Part shown: positions 22,339 through 23,672 of the stretch, in pieces | How positions within the stretch are numbered: position 1 is the stretch's first letter | Layout of the letters: every line of letters begins with the position of its first letter | NCBI RefSeq assembly: GCF_027625935.1 | Contig: NZ_CP115300.1 | Coordinates: forward strand, 7,750,001-7,814,000 | Direction: 5' to 3' | Origin: Streptomyces camelliae | GTDB taxonomy: Bacteria > Actinomycetota > Actinomycetes > Streptomycetales > Streptomycetaceae | Length of the DNA: 64,000 nucleotides | The notes under the pieces: model-generated | The model's input: the letters and a program-made list of their open reading frames with translations, nothing else | The model's database searches: none | What the model was told of the DNA's origin: nothing | Made by a program: the position numbers and the translations under genes

Positions 22339-22644
22339 TCAGCGGACGCCTTCCGGCGGGAGCGCGACGCGCGCAGTACGGCGTTCACCGTCCAGCACCC
22401 GCAACGCCCGTGCCAGCGTGTCCCCGTGCAGCTCCGCCTCGCCCCGCTGATGCATCAACGCGAGGGCGTCCCGCAGCTCTGCGGCCTTGCGCACCAGGGC
22501 CTGGGCCGCGCGCAGACCCCGGTAGGTGTCGCCGTCGAGGGCCGGGTTGATCCTGCCCAGCAGGTCGACCGCCTCCAGGTAACGGTCGATCAGATCGCCC
22601 TCGGCACGCGTCAGCGCGGGCAGCGGCGGCAGCTCCGGAAGCAT
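22339..22644 (-). CDS. Small helical protein co-transcribed with the clpP-like gene (101 aa)
   Basis: Begins MLPELPPLPALTRAEGDLIDRYLEAVDLLGRINPALDG and continues as amphipathic helices (YRGLRAAQALVRKAAELRDALALMHQRG, then LARALRVLDGERRTARVAL). There are no membrane segments, cysteines or known motifs. It starts 7 bp after the ClpP-like stop, so it is in that operon. Unrecognised; by position it could be an adaptor or partner of the protease-like protein. Confidence 0.7.
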   Translation of the reverse strand: MLPELPPLPALTRAEGDLIDRYLEAVDLLGRINPALDGDTYRGLRAAQALVRKAAELRDALALMHQRGEAELHGDTLARALRVLDGERRTARVALPPEGVR

Positions 22645-22651
22645 CGTCGGC

Positions 22652-23302
22652 TCACCTCGCGTCCGGTGCGCCGGGCGTGCTCCGCCGGCTGGGCACGATG
22701 CCGTCCACCAGACCGTAGGCCAGTGCCGCCGGGGCGTCCAGCACCAAGTCCCGTTCCAGGTCGGCGTGCACCTGCTCCGCCGTGCGCCCGGTGTGCCGGA
22801 CGAGCATCTCCTCCGCCAGCGCCCGCATTCGGCCCAACTCCTCGGCCTGGATGAAGAGGTCGCTGGGCTGACCCTGCACCGGCGCGGCCAGCTGGGGCTG
22901 CGCGATCACCATGCGCGCGCCGGGCAGCGCGAACCGCTTGCCCGGGGTGCCGGCCGCGAGCAGCAGCGCCGCGTAGGAGGCGGCCTGGCCCAGGCAGTAG
23001 GTGGCCACGTCGCAGCTGACGTAGCGCAGCGTGTCGTAGAGCGCCGTCATCGCATGGAAGGTGCCGCCGGGGGAGTTGATGTACAGCGTGATGTCCCGCT
23101 CGGGGGCCGCGTGTTCGAGGTACATGAGCTGCGCCATCACGTCGTTGGCCGCCGTGTCGTCGAGCGGGGTGCCGAGGAAGACGATCCGGTCCTCGAAGAG
23201 CTTGCCGTAGGGATCGAGGGTGCGCGCGCCGCTGCTGGTGCGCTCGGTGAATTCCGGCAGGACATAGCGGGCGTGGGCGGCGAATTGCCGGGACATGGAC
23301 AT
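22652..23302 (-). CDS. ClpP-family protein lacking the catalytic histidine (216 aa)
   Basis: Clear ClpP fold: [25 protein letters not shown], the oxyanion loop [18 protein letters not shown], nucleophile Ser109 in [12 protein letters not shown], and the C-terminal [19 protein letters not shown] with Asp185. The catalytic histidine, normally in the MIHQP motif, is replaced by Ala134 (MVIAQPQ); the codon reads GCG. The subunit should therefore be inactive, like ClpR proteins of plastids and cyanobacteria, or work only within a mixed ring. Starts ATG with an AAGGGG ribosome site. Divergent from a Phd/YefM antitoxin, and followed by a 101-residue helical gene. Confidence 0.93.
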
Positions 23303-23351: not shown

Positions 23352-23365
23352 TGTACAGGATGTAC
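23352..23365. promoter_or_regulatory. TGTACA-type operator between clpP-like gene and antitoxin
   Basis: GTACA-GGA-TGTAC forms a perfect inverted repeat (23353-23365), with the core TGTACA at 23352-23357. E. coli YefM is known to bind TGTACA-centred palindromes. A TAGAAT at 23373-23378 would make a -10 box 6 bp before the antitoxin ATG, implying a leaderless transcript. The site also lies 50-63 bp upstream of the clpP-like gene. Confidence 0.6.
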
Positions 23366-23384
23366 GTGACGTTAGAATGGGGGT

Positions 23385-23672
23385 ATGGCCTACGAGATTC
23401 CGGTGACACAAGCCAGGGCTGAGCTCGCCGACCTGATCAACCGGGTGGTGTACGGCGGTGAGCGCGTCGTCGTGACGCGGCATGGAAAGCCGCTGGTCGC
23501 GCTGGTCTCGGCCGCCGATCTGGAGCGGCTGGACGCGCTGGACGAGGCGGCCGGTGCGGCCGAGGAGCAGATCATCAGCTCTGTCTCGGGCGTCCGCGAG
23601 GCCGGTTCCGCTCCGCGTGAACAGCGCCGGTTCGGGATCGCCGCCGAGCATCGCGGACCCGGGGTGTCCTGA
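23385..23672 (+). CDS. Phd/YefM-family antitoxin, no adjacent toxin (95 aa)
   Basis: The N-terminal 70 residues are a complete Phd/YefM domain: MAYEIPVTQARAELADLINRVVYGGERVVVTRHGKPLVALVSAADLERLDALDE. Instead of the usual toxin-neutralising tail it ends with 25 Ser/Arg/Gly-rich residues. No RelE/YoeB/Doc-like gene follows; the next gene is ureA, 234 bp away. It may be a solitary regulator controlling itself and the divergent clpP-like gene, or a relic of a lost pair. Upstream of the ATG there is GGGGG at 1-bp spacing, not a working ribosome site. Confidence 0.9.
   Translation: MAYEIPVTQARAELADLINRVVYGGERVVVTRHGKPLVALVSAADLERLDALDEAAGAAEEQIISSVSGVREAGSAPREQRRFGIAAEHRGPGVS

Follow-up and report, generated by a model that had tools for sequence, protein, structure and literature searches.

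ClpP5 of Streptomyces, a ClpP2-type subunit with recurrent loss of catalytic residues, encoded with a conserved 101-aa protein and a divergent Phd homologue

Results

The clpP5 locus of Streptomyces camelliae

The window, i.e. the whole stretch of DNA analysed here, comprises 64,000 nucleotides of the genome of Streptomyces camelliae (contig NZ_CP115300.1). It holds a gene for a ClpP-family protein, referred to here as clpP5, with the gene of a 101-aa protein (the partner) downstream and the gene of a Phd/YefM-type antitoxin homologue (phd) on the other side (Table 1). The genome has three ClpP genes in all, clpP5 and a clpP1-clpP2 pair located near 6.09 Mb (of 9.6 Mb), and the triads of both ClpP1 and ClpP2 are intact.

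Table 1. Features of the clpP5 locus, with positions in the window
Feature	Position	Strand	Basis or remark
Partner gene, 101-aa protein, family not recognised	22339..22644	(-)	7-bp gap to the clpP5 stop
clpP5, ClpP-family subunit, 216 aa, ATG start	22652..23302	(-)	ORF, Pfam/NCBIfam profiles, alignment
Catalytic-His site of ClpP5, Ala134, codon GCG	22901-22903	(-)	sequence reading
Putative operator TGTACAGGATGTACG	23352..23366	(.)	between phd and clpP5, first base 33 bp upstream of the phd start codon
Possible -10 hexamer TAGAAT of phd	23373..23378	(+)	inferred from sequence
phd, Phd/YefM-type antitoxin homologue, divergent from clpP5	23385..23672	(+)	PF02604 4.7e-13, TIGR01552 1.1e-15

The window ClpP5 matches the Pfam CLP_protease profile of the ClpP family S14 (PF00574) over residues 25-204 (7e-63) and scores 249.1 bits with the NCBIfam profile NF009205, above the cut-off of 228 bits. 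The initial annotation had described the nucleophile Ser109 and Asp185 as kept and the catalytic His as replaced by Ala. This was borne out by the open reading frame, by codons 131-137 (ATG GTG ATC GCG CAG CCC CAG, i.e. MVIAQPQ), by the PF00574 match and by alignment with ClpP2, the Ser and Asp of which align with Ser109 (in GQAASY) and Asp185 (in LERDLVL). The triad sites read S109-A134-D185, and the Ser-His-Asp triad of the family is incomplete.

A sequencing error or a single point mutation was ruled out as the source of Ala134. The codon GCG differs from CAC and CAT in all three bases, so a lone miscalled base is no explanation. Streptomyces sp. CoH27 (L004, with L085 covering part of that sequence) is an independent genome of this species and has the same Ala, at 99 % protein identity. 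His in sister species had been named as a possible sign of such an error, but none of the best 120 of 7989 homologue matches has it (a tally of 121 for this set includes the query). These close relatives mostly have Glu or Gln at the site, and also Ser, Arg, Gly, Thr or Asp; Ala occurs in 4 of the best 120. The conserved trait of the clade of the window is the absence of His, not Ala itself. Distant orthologues do have His (99/218, see below), which, given the intact outgroups, is the ancestral state and not a sign of error.

Ancestry and identity of ClpP5

In a tree of 98 ClpPs (31 of them ClpP5), ClpP5 formed a single clade (SH-aLRT 99) that falls towards ClpP2 and apart from ClpP1; this was a quick tree with long-branch warnings, its clades were read from the best tree, and cyanobacterial and plastid ClpR were not among its rows. 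One branch (94) joined ClpP5 to the ClpP2 of Streptomyces and of other actinobacteria, the branching order inside it not being resolved. ClpP5 is not a ClpP2 orthologue: its clade lies beside, not within, the Streptomyces ClpP2 clade (98), and its gene is not in the clpP1-clpP2 operon. The best PDB sequence match of the window protein is 5dzk, a ClpP2 presumably of mycobacterial origin.

By elimination, the window protein is very probably the ClpP5 of the literature, as five-copy genomes carry a gene of the window type besides clpP1P2 and clpP3P4. S. lividans has been described as carrying clpP1P2, clpP3P4 and a clpP5 termed monocistronic (PMC9765437). No S. lividans or S. coelicolor record was identified, and the match of names rests on the five-copy genomes.

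Loss of triad residues in Streptomyces and in other genera

Altogether 295 Streptomyces genomes were searched and 80 re-searched, and 218 ClpP5 copies (150 + 68) were read at the triad sites. Ser-His-Asp was complete in 84 copies, whereas at least one residue was absent in 134 (one in 73, two in 51 and all three in 10). His was missing in 119 copies and kept in 99, while Ser was missing in 48 and Asp in 38. The replacements at the His site were Gln (48), Arg (42), Glu (13), Ser (8), Ala (2), Thr (2), Asp (2), Gly (1) and Lys (1). Ser was lost in 36/119 His-less compared to 12/99 His-keeping copies and Asp in 32/119 compared to 6/99, both from raw tables for which independent pairs were too few for a test. 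A second set of 120 homologues was gathered with the S. viridochromogenes copy as the seed, and here it is the nucleophile that has been lost and His that is kept (SHD 52, AHD 50, AHE 11, others 7).

The 77 Streptomyces genomes that were not counted for triads, of which 25 were looked at, are not all without clpP5. Diverged, partial or frameshifted clpP5 genes are found among them, e.g. in G145, G172, G197, G242, G266, G281 and G288 (G197 and G242 were fetched and excluded from the triad counts because of their frameshifts), and the copy of G051 (64 %) was left out of the count despite being present. Only two ClpP matches were obtained in 30/295 genomes, and these do without clpP5.

In other genera 25 of the 30 ClpP5 copies read were intact and five broken, the 30 loci being the best-scoring ones among 46 genomes, with the more diverged G297, G309, G320 and G325 outside the count. 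As the outgroups and most of these copies are intact, triad loss is derived and recurrent. On a tree of the 218 ClpP5 and five outgroup sequences, from which the three triad columns had been removed, parsimony requires 16 changes at the His site, 22 at the Ser site and 18 at the Asp site; this was a quick tree whose clades rest on the best tree, and the well-supported branches by themselves call for no fewer than 8, 10 and 8 changes, respectively. Two further ClpP homologues had divergent triad sites, Pro-Arg-Glu in Pseudonocardia eucalypti (L054:5001-5624) and Gly-Arg-Gly in Saccharothrix luteola (L082:5001-5519), and no module gene was matched in either of the fetched loci.

Intact ClpP5 was less common in three-copy genomes (18/106) than in five-copy genomes (62/107; Fisher p 6e-10 on raw counts). 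A link between the absence of clpP3P4 and a broken ClpP5 was nevertheless dropped, since phylogenetically independent pairs gave it no support, and the raw association probably reflects shared ancestry.

The clpP3P4 pairs of 12 Streptomyces genomes (L330-L341) were read in the same way. The ClpP2-like second gene (ClpP4) has Gly in place of His in 12/12, while the triad of the ClpP1-like first gene (ClpP3) is intact in 12/12. In this sample, then, the ClpP2-type accessory subunits lose catalysis and the ClpP1-type ones do not. The Streptomyces ClpP1, ClpP2 and ClpP3 sequences of the 98-ClpP tree read S-H-D. One of the 12 ClpP4 also has Glu for Asp.

Selection and retained features

The two largest His-less clades of the ClpP5 tree hold 64 and 23 genomes. 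Their dN/dS values were 0.075 (40 members of the larger clade) and 0.102 (22 members of the smaller clade, which includes copies of the SAD type, as in the window), close to the 0.085 of 30 intact ClpP5 copies, and such values are not those of pseudogenes. The values of ClpP2 and ClpP1 (16 sequences each) were 0.032 and 0.038, respectively, so that ClpP5 has two to three times the dN/dS of these. Omega fixed at 1 fitted far worse in every set, by 1327 and 623 lnL units in the two His-less clades. Omega was obtained with a simple codon model of our own on IQ-TREE trees, with the branch lengths scaled together; the values are rough and comparable among the sets.

Site entropies of the S-H-D group and of the remaining copies would give a circular contrast at the three triad sites, and retained sites were therefore counted instead. 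Intact ClpP5 has 67 near-invariant sites in residues 12-205, and 50 of these are still near-invariant in the His-less copies. N76, P78, G79 and G80 are kept in 117/119 His-less copies and Arg184 in 118/119. All 218 copies read through at least 187 residues to a stop; in three of them it comes after 196-198 residues, a little short of where the tblastn match ends. The purifying selection, the retained motifs and the full-length reads of the His-less copies are the grounds on which a non-catalytic function of ClpP5 appears to be under selection.

The counterpart of the ATPase-docking pocket of ClpP2

In the Streptomyces ClpP1P2 complex the cutting is ascribed to ClpP1, and as a ClpP2 S131A variant is reported to be fully active, the catalysis of ClpP2 is dispensable; the ClpP2 pocket residues S94, Y96 and Y116 are described as needed for docking of the Clp ATPases (PMC9765437). 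At the corresponding positions of the alignment the window ClpP5 has T72, Y74 and Y94. The Tyr typical of ClpP1 at position 72 was found in 0/218 ClpP5 copies. Position 94 is aromatic in 98/99 His-keeping and in 82/119 His-less copies, i.e. the aromatic residue has gone in a part of the latter, and docking may have been lost in some of them. There are six ClpB_D2-small matches in the genome of the window, one of them in a frame of 450 residues that lies some 1.2 kb beyond clpP2 and is probably clpX, as expected at that place.

The partner and the Phd homologue

The small partner and the divergent antitoxin had both been proposed in the initial annotation. The partner proved to be real and conserved, being present in 216/218 Streptomyces ClpP5 loci and not found in two; it is on the clpP5 strand in all 216 and directly downstream in 215. 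The co-transcription with clpP5 that had been claimed for it is suggested by the 7-bp gap between the genes. The antitoxin assignment was confirmed by PF02604 and TIGR01552, the divergent ORF having the antitoxin DNA-binding domain of type II toxin-antitoxin systems (Phd/YefM), and a homologue was found inside the fetched stretch in 194/218 loci.

No convincing relative of the window partner was found in Pfam or PDB, and single relatives gave only weak Pfam hits (E 0.17 or worse), none of them naming a toxin. The family has PPLPALT and LDGERR motifs, was found in 57 of 121 genomes sampled across the bacterial family, and is more constrained than ClpP5. In a first-pass rough fit the dN/dS of the partner, 0.067, was below those of Phd (0.112) and ClpP5.

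At E 1e-5, the 77 genomes without a counted ClpP5 yielded the partner in 24 and a Phd homologue in 29; strong Phd rows (E below 1e-26) numbered 14, from 13 of these genomes. In two of them, G262 (L349) and G087 (L353), phd, the operator and the partner are still adjacent and no clpP5 match was obtained at the locus. Several genomes in which clpP5 is frameshifted, partial or undetectable still have the partner, Phd or both, which implies that the partner does not act through ClpP5 alone. Outside Streptomyces, the coordinates place a clpP5-like match directly beside the partner in 36/36 partner-bearing genomes. As the partner occurs without clpP5 in some genomes and the two are always paired in this other sample, the dependence of clpP5 on the partner seems to be stronger than that of the partner on clpP5.

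In the window, no toxin gene adjoining phd was recognised with Pfam, the neighbours being clpP5 and the gene of a urease gamma subunit (ureA). Six loci with a longer phd-ureA spacer have ORFs inside it that were judged by eye to be TetR-like and membrane-protein-like. G016 has a standard locus (L375) with phd and a diverged partner and without a clpP5 match, and elsewhere (L374) a ClpP2-like copy (SHD) beside diverged homologues of the partner and of Phd, an arrangement indicating that the module may move or duplicate.

The region between phd and clpP5

The 82-bp phd-clpP5 intergenic region contains TGTACAGGAYGTAC, a putative site for the Phd homologue. Its conserved palindromic form is TGTACAGGA(C/T)GTAC, and it gives the regulatory module suggested in the initial annotation a concrete candidate element. 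TGTAC-N(4-6)-GTAC was found in 170/194 Streptomyces phd-clpP5 intergenic regions, at a distance of 33 or 34 bp from the start of phd in 128 of the 170, and in 30/30 loci read from other genera; the narrower pattern of TGTACA within the last 120 bp was found in 158/194 Streptomyces regions. In the genome of the window the 17-bp form occurs once without mismatch, and seven further matches carry three mismatches, as many as were found with a reversed control. TATGAT or TAGAAT stands at the place of the possible -10 hexamer in a printed sample of relatives, and the phd mRNA is perhaps leaderless.

Among 11 phd loci that lack a counted clpP5, the operator was present in seven: G262, G087 and the standard locus of G016, where clpP5 was undetected, G256 and G107, which have remnants of it, and G197 and G242, where it is frameshifted. 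It was not found in the other four (G208, G145, G187 and G139), and the sequence upstream of the partner gene in four loci that have no phd match did not contain it either.

TGTACA cores are known from YefM-YoeB operators, with two TGTACA palindromes 12 bp apart (PMC7730913, PMC3303803). The cores in the window are TGTACA and TGTACG, 9 bp apart centre to centre. The likeliest reading of the Phd homologue is that of an orphan autorepressor of the Phd family, which perhaps also controls the divergent clpP5-partner operon.

Discussion

Our preferred interpretation, to which we give slightly better than an even chance, is that ClpP5 is a non-catalytic subunit of the ClpR kind that acts together with ClpP1. 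As a paralogue of the ClpP2 type it would no longer depend on an active site of its own, which is already gone in the window copy. The fold of ClpP5 is most likely that of an ordinary ClpP protomer, and the protein would then enter a mixed ClpP core in which the peptidase activity comes from ClpP1; in an alternative assembly it could form a mixed ring with ClpP2. Like ClpP2, it may offer a face to the Clp ATPases and/or alter gating and the choice of substrate. A ClpP1-ClpP5 core in which ClpP5 is the docking or gating part is proposed because ClpP2 catalysis is dispensable, ClpP2 has the docking pocket, and ClpP5 has T72, Y74 and Y94 in its place. The partner is possibly an adaptor or assembly factor of ClpP5, and the divergent Phd-like protein probably represses the clpP5-partner operon from a shared operator.

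The other way to see the triad losses is that ClpP5 is redundant and decaying under relaxed selection, with the triad broken early on the way to gene loss. We regard this as rather unlikely, even if clpP5 is indeed being lost in some lineages, as its frameshifted, partial and undetectable copies show. The losses are frequent and mixed in kind, the dN/dS of ClpP5 is above that of ClpP1 and ClpP2, the pocket aromatic is missing in 37/119 His-less compared to 1/99 His-keeping copies, and in-domain indels were found in 5/119 His-less but 0/84 intact copies, all of which would fit decay. The explanation is weakened by the dN/dS of the His-less clades, which is near that of the intact copies with omega=1 strongly rejected, by the size of the two largest of these clades, and by the full-length reads and structural motifs kept.

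The locus could also be mainly a regulatory or toxin-antitoxin-like pair of Phd and the 101-aa protein, to which ClpP5 has been added. The persistence of phd, operator and partner without a detected clpP5 in G262 and G087, the low dN/dS of the partner and the regular spacing of the operator from phd speak for such a pair, which we nevertheless consider improbable: the window partner has no Pfam family and the weak hits of its relatives name no toxin, it is divergent from phd and not downstream of it, and outside Streptomyces it was found only beside a clpP5-like gene. That His-less ClpP5 still cleaves, by means of another base or with help from its neighbours in a mixed ring, is very improbable. 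In its favour, Ser and Asp do remain in the window copy, and the triad of Listeria ClpP1 (Asn for Asp) is described as active only in complex with ClpP2 (PMC9765437); against it, the His site has several different replacements, Ala cannot serve as a base, and Ser too is lost in 36/119 His-less copies.

Returning to the non-catalytic role, a wider picture can be drawn, for which the chances are somewhat below even. A ClpP2-type subunit would have been disarmed many times and independently across the Streptomycetaceae with its body kept under selection, so that the selected task would be a non-catalytic one. Together with an orphan repressor of the Phd type and the 101-aa proteins as a new family, it would make up a module that regulates itself and through which a catalytically dead ring, for docking or gating, is exchanged into the ClpP1 core.

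Under the tags SCO1237-SCO1240, which we take to be the counterpart locus of S. coelicolor, no paper on the locus was found in the open-access literature. Searches of that literature did not turn up a report of ClpP5 triad loss either, and an earlier mention in the original S. lividans papers (Viala 2000 and others) is possible. The familiar examples of non-catalytic ClpP homologues come from cyanobacteria and organelles. In the present case a single orthologue within one genus has intact, half-lost and fully lost active sites, a natural experiment on the roles of ClpP rings beyond cutting, which bears on the assembly of the antibiotic target that is the complex Clp machine of Streptomyces. 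For the 134 broken copies the automatic label "proteolytic subunit" is open to doubt, and the results point to an unstudied family of partner proteins.

ClpP5 resembles the ClpP2 of Streptomyces ClpP1P2 in its side of the tree, its fold as judged from sequence and the small residue at pocket position 72. It differs in being a separate clade with its own locus beside urease genes, in its frequently broken triad and in its faster evolution. ClpP4 too is an accessory subunit of the ClpP2-like kind in which another residue stands in place of the catalytic His; it has, however, one fixed replacement and is encoded together with the ClpP1-like ClpP3, whereas no ClpP1-like gene adjoins clpP5. The accessory ClpP_ADEP of S. 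hawaiiensis is likewise a Streptomyces ClpP, described as acting through mixed complexes, as would be the case for ClpP5, but it is reported to be closest to ClpP1, to form an active complex with ClpP2 and to be known from one ADEP producer (PMC12607617). The control region is like the YefM-YoeB/Phd type II operators in its Phd/YefM domain protein and TGTACA core (PMC7730913, PMC3303803), and unlike them in the closer cores, in having no toxin recognised alongside and in facing a clpP operon.

The initial annotation had called the protein a ClpR-type subunit, and this holds as an analogy, with ClpP5 falling among the actinobacterial ClpP2-type proteins. Like the ClpR of cyanobacteria, plastids and apicoplasts, described as a ClpP homologue without the catalytic triad and a non-catalytic part of the ring (PMC7966870), ClpP5 has lost catalytic residues, only His in the window copy and all three in the ten most altered ones, while sequence features and purifying selection are retained. 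Unlike in ClpR, the loss has proceeded lineage by lineage and is often partial, and intact orthologues still exist.
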